A stretch of 64,000 bases of DNA from Planctomycetota bacterium (GTDB taxonomy: Bacteria > Planctomycetota > Planctomycetia > Gemmatales > Gemmataceae). Positions 33,844-41,075 of the stretch are shown here, piece after piece. The notes below the pieces were generated by a model. That model was not told where the DNA came from. It worked only from the letters and a program-made list of their open reading frames with translations, and did not search any database. The translations under genes were made by a program, and so were the position numbers. The number at the start of each line of letters is the position of its first letter. Position 1 is the first letter of the stretch. The stretch is taken from positions 1-64,000 of the forward strand of contig JAIOPV010000198.1 in assembly GCA_021413735.1 (NCBI GenBank), read 5' to 3'.

Positions 33844-34803
33844 TTATCCCACGAAGCGGAGCAGGTCGGCGACTGTCATCTCATCGCGAACGCTTTCGGG
33901 CAGCAAGTGACTCGGCACGAACATCTCGGCGGACTGCATCGCGGGGCACATCACGACGTGCTGTGCCGTGATCTCCTGTAAAACGCGGCGGTCGGTCAAA
34001 ACTTCCATCGGTGGTAGTTTTTCCACGTGCTGGGCCATGCACTCGTAACGTTGACACGGTTCCGGCGCAGCCAACTCTCGAAAATGATTCGTGGCCATCA
34101 ACGGTTTGTCGCCGGTCGGTCGCCGCACCATCGCTTTGTTTGTCGTCCGTTCGACGATCGCTCGCTCATCGTTCCGCGTCCCGACGAGCGTGACGATCCC
34201 GCCCGACATGAGCCGTTCGCGTTCGACCATCGCGAGCGCTTCACTAAAACTCTTCGTCGTGTCGAGAACGTGCCGCAGGAACAGCAGCATCGGGTAGCCT
34301 TCGGGATCACTGCCGCCGAACGCTGCGTTGATGCACACGCAGAAGCCGTTTCGCGACATCCCCGTGACCGCTCCCAGAATCCCCACGAAGCCGGCACTCA
34401 CGCCGTAGTCTTCGTTCACGAGGCAACTTGCCTTCGCGATCTTCTCAGCGGGGAACCAGTCCATGTTTCGCGCAAGCACGGGGCCGTCTTTCCCCGCGAG
34501 GGCGAGCGTCGAACAGCCCATCGCCAGCGTTCCCGCAAGCATGTCGTAGCACAGATTGCCCGCGAGCAGATCGACCGGTTCGACGCCCATCTCAGTGGCG
34601 ATCCTGGCACGCTCCGCGTGGATGGGATAGCGCTTCATGACCCCCGGCGCGATGTTGGCAGCAGGGCCAAGCGGCCGGAACATCGCGAGCGTGGCTTGCA
34701 GGAAGTTCTTGGACTTCGCGACCAGGTCGGACGGATATGGTGGCTTGCTGCTCACCGTGGGAACCGATTCGTAGCTGTAGCCCTCGGCGGTGGTGACTCG
34801 CAT
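33844..34803 (-). CDS. C45-type linear amide hydrolase / acyltransferase
   Basis: A 319-residue Ntn-hydrolase-like protein. Start ATG 34803 is chosen for the GGAAGG just upstream; the frame stays open further. Cys97 in AMGCSTLALAGKDGP followed by VLARNMDW matches the N-terminal nucleophile and RNMDW motif of C45 / choloylglycine-type enzymes such as isopenicillin N acyltransferase and acid-ceramidase-like amidases. Self-cleavage before Cys97 would be expected. It is the last gene of the AsnB-like operon. Substrate unknown. Confidence 0.8.
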   Translation of the reverse strand: MRVTTAEGYSYESVPTVSSKPPYPSDLVAKSKNFLQATLAMFRPLGPAANIAPGVMKRYPIHAERARIATEMGVEPVDLLAGNLCYDMLAGTLAMGCSTLALAGKDGPVLARNMDWFPAEKIAKASCLVNEDYGVSAGFVGILGAVTGMSRNGFCVCINAAFGGSDPEGYPMLLFLRHVLDTTKSFSEALAMVERERLMSGGIVTLVGTRNDERAIVERTTNKAMVRRPTGDKPLMATNHFRELAAPEPCQRYECMAQHVEKLPPMEVLTDRRVLQEITAQHVVMCPAMQSAEMFVPSHLLPESVRDEMTVADLLRFVG

Positions 34804-34828
34804 GTCCTTCCTCTGAGATGTGGTGTGG

Positions 34829-35830
34829 TCACTCTGCAATGGACATGCTTGCGGCAACCTCTCGCTCTCGCGATTCGCCAAGAGTCGCGAACAGTTCCTC
34901 GACGCTCGTGGCTCGCTTGATCGCGTCGAAGCCGGTGAACGCCCCGAAGTTCGCGGCCATCTTGAGCCATTGCTTCAGCCGAGGCACGATCCGCCCTGGT
35001 CGGATCGCATCGAATTCTTCCGTCCACTCGACCAGTTGTTGTAAGTGTGGCACCCACTCGAACGTGGCGTTCGTTTCAGGTGGAATGAGTCCAAGTTCAG
35101 CCGCGACCTGCCGTGCCAGCAGCGGACTTGCGAGCGCACCACGACCGAGCATGAAGTGCTTGCAACCGGTTTCCTCACGGCACTGGCGAAAGCCTTCGAT
35201 GCTCCAGATGTCGCCGTTCGCGACGACGGGAATGCCGAGACGTTCGCGAACGCGGCCGATCGGTGCCCAGTGGATCGGCGGAGCATAGCCCGCAACGCGA
35301 GTGCGTCCGTGAATCGTGAGCCATGCCGCGCCGCCTTCCGCTGCCATCTCCGCGTTCTCGTAGATCGTGTCGAGGCAATCCCAGCCGAGCCGCATCTTCG
35401 CGGAAACGGGAACGTCAGCAGGAAGGGCGGCCCGCACAGCGCCGACAATCTCGCGAATTCGCTTCGGGTACTTCAACAGCGTGGCTCCGCCATCGTGACG
35501 GTTCACGGTGGGGGCAGGGCAACCGAAGTTGATGTCGATGGCCGAGGCACCGAGTTCGTGAGCGAGTGCCGCGGATTCGGCCATGCGTCCGGCATCTCCG
35601 CCGAGCAGTTGAATCTGCACACGAAGACCGGTCGGTGTGAGGCAGCCGGTTTTCAGTTCAGGGACGTGCTTGTAGAAGACGCTCTTGGGTGGAACGTGCT
35701 GGCTGACCCGCAGGAACTCCGTCACAGCGAACGTGAACGCGCCAGTGGTGCCTTGTACGGCACGCATCGGCGCATCGGTGACACCTTCCATCGGCGCGAG
35801 AATCAACGCTGGTATGTGTGGCTGAAGCAT
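34829..35830 (-). CDS. tRNA-dihydrouridine synthase (Dus)
   Basis: A 333-residue FMN TIM-barrel enzyme reducing uridines in tRNA. Seen: LAPMEGVTDAPMR at the start, catalytic Cys in INFGCPAPTVNRHDGGATLL, KMRLGWD, the HGRTR FMN/tRNA motif and NGDIWS. The RHDGGATLL form is closest to DusC-type enzymes. It lies 30 bp after an AsnB-like gene and 25 bp before the C45 gene, so a housekeeping gene sits inside the operon. Confidence 0.93.
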   Translation of the reverse strand: MLQPHIPALILAPMEGVTDAPMRAVQGTTGAFTFAVTEFLRVSQHVPPKSVFYKHVPELKTGCLTPTGLRVQIQLLGGDAGRMAESAALAHELGASAIDINFGCPAPTVNRHDGGATLLKYPKRIREIVGAVRAALPADVPVSAKMRLGWDCLDTIYENAEMAAEGGAAWLTIHGRTRVAGYAPPIHWAPIGRVRERLGIPVVANGDIWSIEGFRQCREETGCKHFMLGRGALASPLLARQVAAELGLIPPETNATFEWVPHLQQLVEWTEEFDAIRPGRIVPRLKQWLKMAANFGAFTGFDAIKRATSVEELFATLGESREREVAASMSIAE

Positions 35831-35860
35831 ATCGCTGATTTACCACACACACTCGCGCTT

Positions 35861-37507
35861 TCAACCGTTCAACACGCGACGGAGCCACGCTTCCAGCGTC
35901 ACGAACAGCCAGATTTTCGCTCCGTGACGCGGACGCAATCCACCGAGCTTTCCCGCGAGCAGTCGCTCCAAATAATCGCGATTGAAGAGGCCATAACGTT
36001 GCAACCCATCCAGCACCCGCTCACGGGCAGCCTTTAGCAGTGGACCTTGGAACCATCCCTCGACCGGAACCAGCATTCCGCTCTTGGGTCGATCCAGCAC
36101 GCTTCGCGGCAGCAGATCATCGACCGATCGCTTCAGCAGATACTTCTCGACGGAGCCGTGCAGTTTCAACTTCGCGGGGATAGCGAGCGACAACTCGACC
36201 ACCGACCGCGCGAACAGCGGCGACCGCGCCAGCACCCCGAACGGGAAGCTGAGGGCGTCGATCTTCGGCAGGATGTGGTGCCCGCCCTTGAGCCTGATGT
36301 TGATCGCTTGCAGCCTCGCGACGTAATCCGGGCGTTGAGAGTCGCGGAGCAGCGGGACGAGTTCATCGGTGAGAGGAGATGTCGCGAGGGCATCGCGACC
36401 GATCGCCGTGAATAAGTCCGGGAAGTCGTCGTAGCACTTCAGGTGCGCTCGAAGGTAGCTCGCCTCGCGGCTTCTATCCCCCACGGATGTGTACAACTCT
36501 GACAGAACCATTGGCAGATTCTTCGGGCCGCCGAAACACGGGTCGCCACCTTCACCGTTCAGCACAACGCCGACCTGCTCGCTTGCGGCGCGAAACAGCA
36601 ACGAGTTCGGCACCGTCAACGGGTCGCCGATCGGGTCGCCGAGCGAGCCAACGGAATCGTCGATGTAGTGCAGCACCGCTGCCGGCGAGAGTTCGACGAT
36701 GCGGTGATTGGTGCGGCAGTGGTCCGCGACAAGTGAACTGAACGGCAACTCATTCGCGTAACCCGCCCCGAACGACACCGAATACGTATACACCGGAGCC
36801 TGATGCAGTCGGCATGCGAGTGCGACGACGAGGCTTGAGTCGATGCCGCCGGAGAGCGTGACACCCACAGGTTGATCGGCGGGCAACCGGTCACGCACAG
36901 CATCTTCGAGTACACGACGTAGCTGGCGGGCCTGTTCGTCTTCGGATGCCGTGTTGATTTCGGGCGTCGGCAGTTCCCAGAACTGTTCGCGTCGGAGGCC
37001 GGTTGGCCCGAAGCTCACATGCTCGCCAGGAAGCACCTCGAACACGCCTTCTGCGAGCGTTTCGCGTCCGGGAAGGTAGGCATACGACAGATACGCAGCG
37101 ACCGCACGGATGTTGAGCTTTCGAGGGACGAGGCCGGTTGCGAGCAGCGCCCGCAACGATGACGCGAAGACAAAACCATTCGGGGTATTCGCGTAGAAGA
37201 GTGTGCGTTCGCCGATGGCATCGCGAGCCAGGTGCAGCACGTCGCCGGAGTCTCGCCACGCGAGGCAGAACGCACCGTGAACGTCCGCGAGTTGGTTCCT
37301 CGCGATCACCTGTCGCCAGTCTTCGAGCGATGTGAGCTGTCGGCCAGCGAGTCGGCAGCCATCGAAATCCGCCACAAGACCCGTGCCGTGGGGCGGGAGC
37401 TGCTGAGCTCCTGCGCCGATGCGGCCGCAGGCACGAGAACGCGCAGCGTTCTCGCCGAGAGGCGGACCAACTTGAGCGTGAACTGTGGGATGTTGTCGCG
37501 GAGTCAT
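35861..37507 (-). CDS. AsnB-like amidotransferase without catalytic Cys (second copy)
   Basis: A 548-residue protein with an incomplete glutaminase-like N-terminal half (HGAFCLAWRDSG, ARDAIGERTLFY) and a full synthetase half with the PP-loop LSGGIDSS at 218-225 and NGEGGDPCFGG. There is no N-terminal Cys after the initiator Met, and the first strands of the glutaminase domain are missing. It should bind ATP and activate a carboxylate but cannot release ammonia from glutamine. ATG 37507 starts three bases after the preceding stop. Confidence 0.85.
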   Translation of the reverse strand: MTPRQHPTVHAQVGPPLGENAARSRACGRIGAGAQQLPPHGTGLVADFDGCRLAGRQLTSLEDWRQVIARNQLADVHGAFCLAWRDSGDVLHLARDAIGERTLFYANTPNGFVFASSLRALLATGLVPRKLNIRAVAAYLSYAYLPGRETLAEGVFEVLPGEHVSFGPTGLRREQFWELPTPEINTASEDEQARQLRRVLEDAVRDRLPADQPVGVTLSGGIDSSLVVALACRLHQAPVYTYSVSFGAGYANELPFSSLVADHCRTNHRIVELSPAAVLHYIDDSVGSLGDPIGDPLTVPNSLLFRAASEQVGVVLNGEGGDPCFGGPKNLPMVLSELYTSVGDRSREASYLRAHLKCYDDFPDLFTAIGRDALATSPLTDELVPLLRDSQRPDYVARLQAINIRLKGGHHILPKIDALSFPFGVLARSPLFARSVVELSLAIPAKLKLHGSVEKYLLKRSVDDLLPRSVLDRPKSGMLVPVEGWFQGPLLKAARERVLDGLQRYGLFNRDYLERLLAGKLGGLRPRHGAKIWLFVTLEAWLRRVLNG

Positions 37508-37510
37508 GGC

Positions 37511-38665
37511 TCACCCGAAGGCGTCGGCTCCCCCTTCACCCCCGCCTCCATCGCCATCGGCACCACCGTAACCGCCAGCGTCGAACGCACCGCACGTTGT
37601 CACGGAACCGCTACTGTCCGCCGCACGCGGATCGTCAGCAGCGTGAGCCATCAACCCCGCGAACAATCGCTTCAAGACCTGCTCGGGCCGTGCGGCCGCC
37701 AGTTCGAGTTTGTATTTCGAAAGCCATTCCGCCTCGGCCTGTTCAATGCCAATCTCATCGTTTGGTCTAATGCTCGGCCCCTCCAGTAACAACCCGTGGA
37801 ACGGTCCGGCGTGGCGTGGGCGCAAGCCAAGGTCGATCACGCGAAGACCGCATCCGCCGAACCATTCCGGCTCCGTGATGAGTCGTTGTGCGAGCCGACA
37901 GCCTGGAATCGTGGCATCATGCAGCACGAATATCTGGAGCTTCGGGTTTCGCTTCAGCATCGCCATGATGACCTTGAACGGTCCCTTGGGGTAACCCTCG
38001 ATCGAGAGGATCGCGCAGTTGTTCTCGAAGTGGAAGTTGTTCGCGACGAGCAGATCGACCGTGCGGGCACGGTCGCAAATCACGGCGCGATCGAAGGAGT
38101 AGTCACCGATGTCGGCTTCGAGGTCTTTGGGCATTTCGGGTTCGGGCATGCGCTCGATCAGTCCCTTCGGTGTTCCGTTCACCTGTCGCCAGCGATCCCA
38201 CAAGCGGTTGAAGGTCGCAAGATCCATGCGGACCAACGGACGGGGAATTCGGCTGACGAGGCCCACAGTCAGGATCATCAGAGCGACGGCCCCCCCGAGG
38301 GCAAAGGAAACCGTCTTCGTCGCCGCCGGATCCTTCTTCGTGGTTGGTAAAGGTTTGTTAGGTACAGCTGCGGCGTTGATCGCGGCGGCCCCGAGTAGAC
38401 CAGCCGTCGCGACGAGCAGAATGAAAATGCACCCCATGGGCATCCGCGAGCGCTTCCAGCGACGGTTGATCTCGTAGTACAGATGCTCGACACCCCAGCG
38501 GATGCGGCCATCGCCCGAGACGCCGTTGATCGCGTTGAGGAACAGCATGTCGGTGATGGGGTCGCCGTTCTTCGGCTCGAATACGAATGCGCCCTTGCAG
38601 TTCGGGCAGGTGCCGTTGGTCCGGTCTTTGTAGTTGCTGTCCTTGTTGCAGCGGATGCACTTCAT
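37511..38665 (-). CDS. Zinc-ribbon membrane protein between AsnB-like genes
   Basis: A 384-residue protein. An N-terminal zinc ribbon (CIRCNKDS...CPNCKGAFVF), two membrane helices (GCIFILLVATAGLLGAAAIN; VSFALGGAVALMILTVGLVS), then a soluble alpha/beta region with DRAVICDRARTVDLLVAN and ILSIEGYPKGPFKVIMAMLK, and a Gly/Asp-rich tail. The soluble part recalls a nucleotide-binding Rossmann-like fold, but no family is certain. It overlaps the upstream AsnB-like gene by 4 bp and clearly belongs to the operon. Confidence 0.7.
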   Translation of the reverse strand: MKCIRCNKDSNYKDRTNGTCPNCKGAFVFEPKNGDPITDMLFLNAINGVSGDGRIRWGVEHLYYEINRRWKRSRMPMGCIFILLVATAGLLGAAAINAAAVPNKPLPTTKKDPAATKTVSFALGGAVALMILTVGLVSRIPRPLVRMDLATFNRLWDRWRQVNGTPKGLIERMPEPEMPKDLEADIGDYSFDRAVICDRARTVDLLVANNFHFENNCAILSIEGYPKGPFKVIMAMLKRNPKLQIFVLHDATIPGCRLAQRLITEPEWFGGCGLRVIDLGLRPRHAGPFHGLLLEGPSIRPNDEIGIEQAEAEWLSKYKLELAAARPEQVLKRLFAGLMAHAADDPRAADSSGSVTTCGAFDAGGYGGADGDGGGGEGGADAFG

Positions 38666-40407
38666 GCCGAGCCCCCCGGTGACACGCCCTTACCGTCGAT
38701 GAACACCCGGAACCACGCTTCCAGCATCGCCAGTGTCCAGAGTCGTTCCCCGATCCGCCGTCGGCGAATCTCGTTCGGCTGGTCGTGTCCGGCTCGCAGT
38801 TCGGCGATGTATTCTGGGCGGAACAACCCACGACGCTTGAGTGACACCGGCCCGAGCAGGTCTTCGAGAACGCCTGCCAGCGGTCCGAGTGCCCAATCGG
38901 TGATCGGCACACTCATACCGAATTTCCGTCGCCACACGATTTCACGCGGCAGGTATTTTTGTAGGGCAAGTTTCAGGACGTACTTCTCGCACGCGCCGTG
39001 CAGTTTCATTTGCGGTGGCAGCGTGAACGACGCTTCGGCGAGCGCCCGGTCGAACAGCGGCGCCCGCACATCCAGCCCCCAGCACTGACTCGTGCGATCC
39101 ATTCGCGGCAGGATGTTCTGCGACCCCTTCAGCGAGATATCGGCGAGGCGAATGCGATTCAAGAATGTGGTAGCGTTCTCACTGCGAAGATATGGAGCCA
39201 GCAGCGCTCGGCGTGGTCCCGGTGGGCCGATTTGGGCGAGAAACTCAGGCGTGTAGAGTCGATCTTCGAGGTTGTAGAAGCGGTGATACGAACGGAGATA
39301 GTTCTGCTCGCGGCTGTCTTCGCCATACAGCCCGGCGTAGAGTTGTGCTGAGATCATCGGCTTGCTTGTCCAGCCGCCGAAGAGTTGATCGCCACCTTCG
39401 CCGTTGAAGACTGCACTGAGACCGGCCTGTCGTGCGGCTCGTGCCATCAGGTATTGCGGACCGGTCACCGCGTCGCCGAACGGCAGATCGAGCTTCCAAA
39501 CGAGATCCATTATCACCGGCACCAAGTCCTCGCCGCCGGCCTTCACGAACGTCAGCGGAATGCCCAGCGTCTCTGCGACGATCTTCGCCTGATCGCGTTC
39601 GACGCTCGCCTTGCCGAAGTCGAGGCTGAACGCCTTCACATTCACGCCGGCTTGCTTCAACCACACCCCAACCCCAGACGAATCCAATCCCCCCGAGAGG
39701 AACAGCCCGACTTCCGACTCGCCGTTGAGCCGTTTCGTTACCGCTTCTCGGCAGAGTCGCCGCACCAACTTCACGGCAGGTTTGCGAACTGCGAGTTCGG
39801 GGTCGATCTTCTCTCGCAGTGCGAAGTACGGCGTGATGCTGAGTTTGCCGTCTTGCCACACGGCGATGCGTCCGGGCAGCAATCGCTTCACCCCCTTGAT
39901 GGGAACATCTTCGCCGGGCACGAACGAGAACGTGAGGTACTTGTGGATCGCGACGAGATCCGGTTCATTGCGGAAACCGGGAATTGCAAGGATCTGCTTC
40001 AACTCGCTGGCGAAGTAGAAGACGCCCGCGTGTTCGACGTAGTACAGCGTGCGGACCCCAAACGGATCTCGTAGGAACGAGAGTCGCTTGCGGTCGCCAT
40101 CCCACCACGCGGCTGCGAAGTTGCCATCCAGGCGCGCAAGCCGTGCCGGGTCGTTCAGGATCGCGGGCAGTTCGGAAGCGGGCGAATCGACACGTGGCAC
40201 GACCGACCCGGACACCGCACAGAGCGAGTCGCCGTTCTGATGGACGCCGCTGGATTTGCCGGGTCGCCCCGACCACATGCGATAGCCAATGCCAGCACCG
40301 TTTGCGTGTGCGGTGTCGCTGCGGTCACCGCGATACGCCACGGCATTGAGCATCTTGTCGAGAACAGCGGGGTCGGCGTTGCCAACGTAGCCGGCGATTG
40401 CACTCAC
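38662..40407 (-). CDS. AsnB-like amidotransferase with Cys replaced by Ser (first copy)
   Basis: A 581-residue class B asparagine-synthetase homologue. GTG 40407 gives V-SAIAGYVG, where the canonical sequence is MCGIAG, so the glutaminase nucleophile Cys is Ser. RGD replaces RGPD. The synthetase domain is intact, with LSGGLDSS at about 237-244 and FNGEGGDQLFGG. GGAG lies eight bases upstream and the start overlaps the cupin stop (GTGA). Beta-lactam synthetases and related amide-forming enzymes show the same loss of the Cys. Product unknown. Confidence 0.88.
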   Translation of the reverse strand: MSAIAGYVGNADPAVLDKMLNAVAYRGDRSDTAHANGAGIGYRMWSGRPGKSSGVHQNGDSLCAVSGSVVPRVDSPASELPAILNDPARLARLDGNFAAAWWDGDRKRLSFLRDPFGVRTLYYVEHAGVFYFASELKQILAIPGFRNEPDLVAIHKYLTFSFVPGEDVPIKGVKRLLPGRIAVWQDGKLSITPYFALREKIDPELAVRKPAVKLVRRLCREAVTKRLNGESEVGLFLSGGLDSSGVGVWLKQAGVNVKAFSLDFGKASVERDQAKIVAETLGIPLTFVKAGGEDLVPVIMDLVWKLDLPFGDAVTGPQYLMARAARQAGLSAVFNGEGGDQLFGGWTSKPMISAQLYAGLYGEDSREQNYLRSYHRFYNLEDRLYTPEFLAQIGPPGPRRALLAPYLRSENATTFLNRIRLADISLKGSQNILPRMDRTSQCWGLDVRAPLFDRALAEASFTLPPQMKLHGACEKYVLKLALQKYLPREIVWRRKFGMSVPITDWALGPLAGVLEDLLGPVSLKRRGLFRPEYIAELRAGHDQPNEIRRRRIGERLWTLAMLEAWFRVFIDGKGVSPGGSA

Positions 40408-41075
40408 TTGCGGATCTCCGGTGGAAGGATGGTTCGGTTCACCATCGGGTGGCACTCATCCGTCGGGCCGAAATCGCTGTCAGGATGGTATGCTACCACG
40501 AGCAACGAATCGTTCCCCGTGTGGAAGCTGTGAAGTTGCTCTGCCGCGATGACGAACGCCAGGCCGGGCCGCAGTGGGAACTCGCGTTCGGGCGTGACGC
40601 ACAGCCCGGTTCCCGTAACGATCAACCCGACTCGCACTGATGGGTGCGTATGTGCCGACTGCCGGGTGTGCGGCGGGATGTGCAGCAGATTCAGGCACGC
40701 GTCGCCGAGCTTCACCGGCGGAATCAGTAGTGAGTCGGTGCAGCCGTCGATGTAGCGAAGGCGTCCGGTATCCTCGATCGGACCGCCGAGGTGAAAGAAG
40801 CCGCGATACCCTTCCCGCGTGATGACCAAGCCGCAACCGCCTCGCAGGGTGGCCACGCCCGCGACCGAAAAGTACATGCCGGTTTGAAGCTGAAAGGTTC
40901 CGGAAGCACACGCGAGTTCAGCGGATCCACTCTGCACGAATCCGAAATGCGTTCCAGTTGCAGGCAATTCGTGTGAGACGTTGCCGTTCCAGGTCGTGAC
41001 CAGCGTTGGATACGGATCGGTTCGGAGATCGACGCGACCTTGCTGGGCGAGTTCAAACGGATGAAACGAGGGCAC
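40404..41075 (-). CDS. Cupin-domain protein
   Basis: A 223-residue double-cupin-like protein. The second half has the metal-binding pattern HTHPSVRVGLIVTGTGLCVT and LRPGLAFVIAAEQLHSF. The N-terminal half resembles an AraC-type sensing cupin (GSAELACASGTFQLQTGMYF) but no HTH follows. The GTG start has GGAG upstream. As first gene of the operon it may be a metal-dependent modifying enzyme or a small-molecule sensor. Confidence 0.78.
   Translation of the reverse strand: MPSFHPFELAQQGRVDLRTDPYPTLVTTWNGNVSHELPATGTHFGFVQSGSAELACASGTFQLQTGMYFSVAGVATLRGGCGLVITREGYRGFFHLGGPIEDTGRLRYIDGCTDSLLIPPVKLGDACLNLLHIPPHTRQSAHTHPSVRVGLIVTGTGLCVTPEREFPLRPGLAFVIAAEQLHSFHTGNDSLLVVAYHPDSDFGPTDECHPMVNRTILPPEIRK

Follow-up and report, generated by a model that had tools for sequence, protein, structure and literature searches.

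A conserved gene module pairing two asparagine-synthetase-like enzymes that lack the glutaminase cysteine with a zinc-ribbon/TOPRIM-like membrane protein, and its possible role in amide formation

The window analysed here is a 64,000-nucleotide stretch (positions 1 to 64,000 of contig JAIOPV010000198.1, assembly GCA_021413735.1) from a planctomycete of the Gemmataceae family. Its minus strand carries four adjoining genes that form a biological unit, encoding a cupin-domain protein, two asparagine-synthetase-like enzymes (AsnB1 and AsnB2) and, between these two, a membrane-associated zinc-ribbon protein referred to as ZR. It is tentatively proposed, at somewhat less than even confidence, that cupin-AsnB1-ZR-AsnB2 is the Gemmataceae form of a widespread amide-forming module in which the C-terminal glycine of ZR is the likely substrate. 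The activation of carboxylates by asparagine-synthetase-like enzymes is known; what is new is the form of the module with its ZR partner, and no published account of this combination was found in the open-access literature on asparagine synthetase or synthase with TOPRIM or zinc ribbon.

AsnB1 (38662..40407, minus strand) and AsnB2 (35861..37507, minus strand) both belong to PF00733 with 232 and 229 bits respectively (cut-off 21), and score 244.9 and 209.5 bits with TIGR01536, which is under its cut-off of 267.1. Their PP-loops read SGGLDSS and SGGIDSS. As an earlier note on this DNA had pointed out, both enzymes keep this loop and are devoid of the glutaminase cysteine: the N-terminus of AsnB1, MSAIAGYVG, has a serine at the nucleophile position, and AsnB2 is missing the N-terminal strand that bears the cysteine. 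Contig C61 of the host genome encodes its other full-length AsnB, an ordinary enzyme that reads MCGIAG. Residues were counted in 61 module enzymes (31 AsnB1 and 30 AsnB2) and compared with nine canonical enzymes. The glutaminase cysteine occurs in none of the 61 (AsnB1 0/31, AsnB2 0/30) but in 9/9 canonical enzymes, the glutamine-binding asparagine is likewise absent from all 61 and the arginine is mostly lost, whereas the canonical enzymes keep both. The serine and aspartate of the PP-loop and the synthetase lysine are present throughout (61/61, AsnB2 30/30) as they are in the nine canonical enzymes, and the NGE and the aspartate of the NGExGD signature are also found in 61/61. The residue that follows GEGxD tells the three groups apart, being Gln in 30 of the 31 AsnB1 proteins (NGEGGDQ in the window), Pro in every AsnB2 (30/30; NGEGGDP in the window) and Glu in 9/9 canonical enzymes. 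Judged by these residues both AsnBs retain the fold and the ATP-pyrophosphate synthetase site, are predicted to be active and have lost the use of glutamine. Since the glutaminase is lost while the synthetase site is intact in 61/61, a part in amide formation apart from glutamine-dependent asparagine synthesis suggests itself most naturally, in line with the expectation that the loss of the cysteine goes together with an amide-forming role.

In a tree of 70 sequences the canonical enzymes form a branch with support of 98/99 and AsnB2 a group of 28 at 96/89. The AsnB1 group as a whole is weakly supported (61/99) and its core of 30 is recovered at 100/100. In both the AsnB1 core and AsnB2 the same deep split sets a Gemmata-type group apart from a cyanobacterial-type one. 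The AsnB1 model has a mean predicted local distance difference test score (pLDDT) of 92.8 and can be matched across both domains to the trichostatin hydroxyamidotransferase TsnB9 (7ylz, Z 35.3), E. coli AsnB (1ct9, Z 32.2) and beta-lactam synthetase (BLS; 1jgt, Z 30.6).

ZR (37511..38665, minus strand) matches no Pfam family above cut-off and is predicted to comprise a zinc ribbon, two membrane helices, a TOPRIM domain of the TopoVI-A/Spo11 type, a variable tail and a terminal Phe-Gly (FG). The ribbon occupies residues 1-31 (38573..38665, minus strand) and all four cysteines of its CxxC...CxxC motif are invariant in an alignment of 35 sequences. A membrane hairpin is predicted at residues 77-137 (38255..38437, minus strand) from a pair of long helices that the model shows (mean pLDDT 85.5) and the hydrophobic sequence, with a topology that is likewise predicted, and it is longer in cyanobacteria. 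Residues 185-342 (37640..38113, minus strand) form a predicted degenerate TOPRIM domain that matches TopoVI-A (1d3y_B) with Z 9.2 and a root-mean-square deviation of 4.3 over 164 aligned residues; the corresponding values for JetD and Spo11 are Z 7.2 and Z 6.1. The PF21180 (TOP6A-Spo11_Toprim) profile gives 25.2 bits for the ZR of locus L099, 22.5 for that of L098 and 16.4 for that of the window, at a gathering cut-off of 24.1. The Foldseek match is weak by itself (best E 5.7e-3), so it is the concordance of three methods that carries the assignment. Across the 35-row alignment the TOPRIM DxD motif is degraded to HDAT, HDCS, HNAS or HSAT, with the second aspartate lost and the first often replaced by Asn or Ser, no catalytic glutamate is invariant, and two new invariant motifs, FHFEN and YSFDR, are seen. 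An active TOPRIM nuclease is therefore an unlikely role for ZR. The earlier label of a membrane zinc ribbon stands as far as the ribbon and the predicted helices go, but it did not cover the TOPRIM-type domain or the invariant C-terminal FG, and ZR is better described, on the strength of sequence and model, as a membrane-associated zinc-ribbon/TOPRIM-like protein outside any named family.

Two further sets of proteins resemble parts of ZR. Loci L011 (1213-3450) and L012 (1-2292) encode single chains in which a GHKL-like region is combined with a TOPRIM domain whose Glu and DxD are retained, reminiscent of a TopoVI-like B-A fusion, and these TOPRIM domains are about 26-29% identical to the TOPRIM region of ZR. 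The first ~80 residues of ZR, namely the ribbon and the next helix, weakly match open reading frames (ORFs) of ~290 amino acids in small (~1.9 Mb) cyanobacterial genomes including L184-L187, where the rest of ZR is absent.

At its C-terminus ZR ends exactly in FG (codons at 37514..37519, minus strand, in the window) in 71 of 73 homologues, and the two exceptions (L061 and L073) look truncated. All 23 cyanobacterial ZRs from a whole-profile search, a set that partially overlaps with the 73, also end in FG, as do further members of the clade and the distant L020 and L021 proteins, and the ending is absent from pseudogene pieces. As background, just 2 of the 808 other ORFs in the module loci end in this way. 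Conservation drops at once upstream of the dipeptide: position -3 is Ser in 76%, -4 is Asp, Glu or Gln, and -5 to -30 are mostly below 50%. The preceding tail is variable and mostly acidic or Gly/Ser-rich; DGGGGEGGADAFG is one example of a tail peptide. The idea that FG is conserved only because AsnB2 is translationally coupled to ZR, with GGN-TGA serving as a ribosome-binding site, was rejected, as FG is kept where AsnB2 is convergent and the codons vary. Both the Phe and the Gly codons vary synonymously among ZR genes and FG holds where AsnB2 lies on the opposite strand in cyanobacteria, which places the constraint on the protein. With such a tail encoded next to two synthetases that are glutaminase-dead, ZR may present its C-terminal glycine to them, preferably as a substrate and otherwise as a docking motif.

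The ZR alignment was scanned against genome contigs and returned 144 relatives, of which the best 80 loci were kept for the counts. The hosts of these 80 belong to the Planctomycetota, Myxococcota, Acidobacteriota, Armatimonadota, Beta- and Gammaproteobacteria, Cyanobacteria and Obscuribacter. Far from being scattered singly, which the earlier note had named as the outcome that would speak against a pathway, the homologues travel together: in the DNA fetched around ZR an AsnB relative is found at 77/80 loci (AsnB1 at 74, AsnB2 at 55), and 52 loci have both, the usual order being AsnB1-ZR-AsnB2. Among the three loci without an AsnB, L066 and L082 are on short contigs and L051 is not. Most non-cyanobacterial loci have the order [decarboxylase]-AsnB1-ZR-AsnB2, with the decarboxylase in brackets as an optional first gene, and cyanobacteria, Blastocatellia and Obscuribacter the order MEM3-AsnB1-decarboxylase-ZR with AsnB2 convergent. 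MEM3 has one predicted membrane helix and its Pfam matches to DUF2914 and MG2 are all under cut-off. A near full-length ZR is encoded by 23/194 sampled genomes of the cyanobacterial phylum (E <= 2.4e-80). Sphaerospermopsis kisseleviana NIES-73 and Oscillatoria sp. PCC 10802 are among the cyanobacteria that carry the module. The distant planctomycete loci L020 and L021 contain a ZR of 25-27% identity and one AsnB only, which is possibly an ancestral or a reduced version of the module; in L020 (8281-11740) a cupin precedes ZR, and in L021 (7244-9946) a cobalamin adenosyltransferase does. The flanks of the module loci are housekeeping or variable genes, and no conserved transporter, carrier protein or further biosynthetic enzyme was found in them.

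Several peculiarities of individual lineages were also observed. A number of cyanobacteria have at least two tandem copies of ZR, some of them in pieces, next to a single AsnB1 (L074, 8639-12685; L045, L056, L058, L047, L070, L094 and L101). In the betaproteobacterial loci L025, L030, L032, L033 and L040, which may represent one clade, several receptor-like proteins lie on either side of the AsnB1-ZR-AsnB2 triad; by eye they were assigned as similar to Bug/TctC tricarboxylate-binding proteins. The module is also carried by public metagenome-assembled genomes labelled Bordetella parapertussis and Akkermansia muciniphila (L025, L033 and L023), whose labels look unreliable and whose hosts are uncertain.

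The most frequent further partner is a LysA-like decarboxylase, present at 63 of the 80 ZR loci. Scored against TIGR01048 (cut-off 297.9) the cyanobacterial copies reach 230-252 bits and that of L023 reaches 269.9, while three cyanobacterial genomes encode a true LysA of 480-507 bits elsewhere besides the module copy, which scores 230-251 bits in these three. The simple identification of the module enzyme with LysA was rejected on these grounds, and it is regarded as an extra paralogue. The cupin of the window (40404..41075, minus strand, 223 amino acids, Cupin_2 36.1 bits in Pfam) is the first module gene in Gemmataceae. A cupin is found at 5/80 loci (L022, L029, L034, L035 and L100), never together with the decarboxylase, and it also adjoins the module in L020. 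As the two do not co-occur, the cupin may take over the decarboxylase step in Gemmataceae and some myxobacteria, an inference that is limited by the phylogenetic non-independence of the loci. A search for the decarboxylase elsewhere in genome G000 and four related Gemmataceae genomes gave LysA-like matches of 32-36% only, and in the same five genomes the one-helix protein was found in G060 alone.

The limits of the unit are set by comparisons within the Gemmataceae, where ZR is present in 5/95 genomes. The earlier note had described six genes at 33844-41075 as one operon, and six minus-strand ORFs are indeed found there. The GTG start of AsnB1 overlaps the cupin stop (GTGA coupling) and an ATGA coupling joins AsnB1 to ZR, so the couplings it reported are genuine at these two junctions; ZR and AsnB2 are 3 nucleotides apart. 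About 30 nucleotides beyond AsnB2 follows a tRNA-dihydrouridine synthase family gene (dus; 34829..35830, minus strand, PF01207 218.6 bits), and after a further gap of about 25 nucleotides a C45-family enzyme, an Ntn amidohydrolase (33844..34803, minus strand), which NCBIfam assigns to the C45 proenzyme family (NF040521, 111 bits, cut-off 85) and which has a Pfam AAT/C45 match of 53.6 bits. The tight spacing favours a single six-gene operon in which C45 would share one amide pathway, for a peptide or a small molecule, with the other genes, and co-transcription in this strain is possible. The gene neighbourhoods of relatives speak otherwise. The AsnB1-ZR-AsnB2 order is the same in all four other ZR-bearing Gemmataceae genomes, and the cupin precedes the triad in three of them (L014, L016 and L017), the fourth contig being too short upstream. 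The conserved neighbourhood that had been asked for in this family is thus found for four genes, and the triad order is kept far beyond the family. Neither dus nor C45 has a match in the module regions of these four genomes. C45 orthologues of 60-72% identity occur in six genomes of the genus that are devoid of ZR, in G016 the C45 gene and the triad are on different contigs (C12 and C21), and dus adjoins C45 both in G016 and in G022, the latter without ZR. The dus-C45 pair (33844-35830, minus strand) is a conserved neighbour pair of its own in relatives (L103 and L104), and it is an independent unit that merely abuts the module here, because C45 occurs without ZR or on another contig and dus accompanies it. 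The six-gene operon was accordingly rejected as the biological unit and a shared pathway is most improbable, and since dus and C45 belong to another unit, isopenicillin N acyltransferase no longer offers a parallel.

The module enzymes resemble several characterised systems without coinciding with any of them. They share with E. coli AsnB the two-domain fold, the PP-loop, the Glu of GEGxD (presumably position 348 of the E. coli enzyme) and the Lys, and differ from it in lacking the nucleophile Cys and the glutamine-binding Asn, in the Arg that is mostly gone and in the Gln or Pro that replaces the Glu after GEGxD. TsnB9 is the nearest solved fold to AsnB1 and the top PDB sequence match of both AsnBs, at 21-22% identity, and it is not known to have a ZR-like partner. 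BLS and carbapenam synthetase (CarA, 1q15) also have an AsnB fold without a working glutaminase, the Cys having been lost. The earlier analogy with BLS is nevertheless weak, because the position of the Tyr of BLS and CarA (GYGSD and GYGAD) is occupied by Glu in the module enzymes (61/61), and beta-lactam-type chemistry was set aside as weakened by this substitution. The best NCBIfam match of AsnB2 is the XrtA/PEP-CTERM family TIGR03108 with 235 bits (AsnB1, 216.1), far under the cut-off of 816.9. In XrtA/PEP-CTERM systems an AsnB-like enzyme is likewise paired with a fold-III decarboxylase, though the module decarboxylase is far below the TIGR03099 cut-off of 478.45 bits and closer to LysA. 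The lasso peptide cyclase profile NF033535 (cut-off 525) gives 133.6 bits for AsnB1 and 129.7 for AsnB2, and among the larger neighbouring ORFs that were examined, in the absence of a dedicated precursor search, there is no B-protein peptidase. ZR in turn has a predicted TOPRIM fold in common with TopoVI-A, Spo11 and JetD but is devoid of their acidic metal-binding residues and, unlike them, fuses the domain to a zinc ribbon, membrane helices and the FG tail.

Two precedents are closer to the proposed role of the tail. LysW is a small, soluble protein that is loaded on a Glu by the ATP-grasp-type LysX. LysW, with its four Zn-binding cysteines, and ArgW have a C-terminal EDWGE and serve as covalent carriers (PMC10433800). 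ZR resembles them in having a zinc ribbon and a short C-terminal motif that does not vary, but it ends in FG rather than EDWGE, and a general Pfam scan, which did not include a direct comparison with LysW sequences, gave no match of ZR to the LysW family up to E 0.1. As a class, asparagine-synthetase-like enzymes adenylate a carboxylate and link it to a nitrogen nucleophile. The asparagine-synthetase-like TsrC and ScdTA amidate the C-terminal carboxylates of peptides and PesC forms a nitrile, the latter using glutamine or ammonia on a short precursor of a ribosomally synthesised and post-translationally modified peptide (RiPP) (PMC13060819). By analogy the substrate proposed for the module would be the adenylated C-terminal carboxylate of a gene-encoded partner. 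The module differs from PesC in that its two enzymes are both glutaminase-dead and work beside a membrane protein instead of a short RiPP precursor.

It is proposed that AsnB1 and AsnB2 would adenylate carboxylates and join them either to free ammonia or to an amine that does not come from glutamine as ammonia. At least one of the two enzymes would most likely activate the C-terminal glycine of ZR, which would serve as a tethered carrier or acceptor in the manner of LysW/ArgW or of C-terminally modified peptides. In many lineages the LysA-like decarboxylase would supply or trim the attached amine part, a function for which the cupin may stand in in Gemmataceae and some myxobacteria. A more specific version of this scheme, in which both AsnBs adenylate the Phe-Gly carboxylate of ZR and build on it an amine-containing group that is trimmed by the decarboxylase in many lineages, is doubtful. 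If it held, ZR would be a carrier on a tether, or else a membrane protein with a C-terminal modification of a new kind. Several observations weigh against the glycine of ZR as substrate. A docking motif would lead one to expect an unvarying C-terminus just as much, and the ZR of L039 has almost no linker before its DSFG. PesC draws its nitrogen from glutamine or ammonia whereas the module AsnBs are glutaminase-dead, and the Gemmata-type AsnB1 keeps Ser at the nucleophile position in 14/16 cases, so that some residual chemistry there is possible. Furthermore, no decarboxylase lies beside the module in Gemmataceae, and the ZR of L051 has no AsnB nearby.

A serious, if less than even, possibility is that the AsnBs act on free metabolites, forming two amide bonds or one by a heteromer, with the decarboxylase or the cupin making or trimming a building block and ZR acting as a scaffold or sensor whose FG docks the enzymes. 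This is consistent with the frequency of the decarboxylase (63/80 loci), whose related families FslC and TIGR03099 work in small-molecule clusters, with the closeness of AsnB1 to a small-molecule hydroxyamidotransferase, TsnB9, and with FG as a C-terminal docking motif. However, the core is not surrounded by the conserved transporter, carrier protein or further biosynthetic enzymes of such a pathway, and on its own this explanation does not account for a tail that has to end at a free glycine carboxylate. Plain ammonia-dependent asparagine synthesis, with ZR and the cupin as incidental neighbours, would agree with the retention of the synthetase residues including the Glu, given that a Cys-less AsnB could use ammonia. 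It is nonetheless quite improbable, since two divergent paralogues are kept with ZR over several phyla, the Glu that follows GEGxD in canonical enzymes (9/9) gives way to Gln (AsnB1) or Pro (AsnB2), and a canonical AsnB is encoded elsewhere in the genome. Similarly, the TOPRIM domain of the TopoVI-A/Spo11/JetD type could point to a DNA- or RNA-related system in defence or genome maintenance, as PF21180 exceeds its cut-off in L099 and the model matches TopoVI-A with Z 9.2 and JetD with Z 7.2; yet the acidic residues are not conserved, ZR has membrane helices and its partners activate carboxylates, which makes this role improbable as well.

If the proposal that the module forms amides with the C-terminal glycine of ZR as substrate is true, a module of many cyanobacteria, myxobacteria and planctomycetes would perform glutamine-free amide chemistry on or with a membrane protein. 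Asparagine-synthetase-like enzymes, with small molecules and short peptides as their established range, would then reach a large membrane protein as well, and a function would be provided for an unnamed family of TOPRIM-like proteins.

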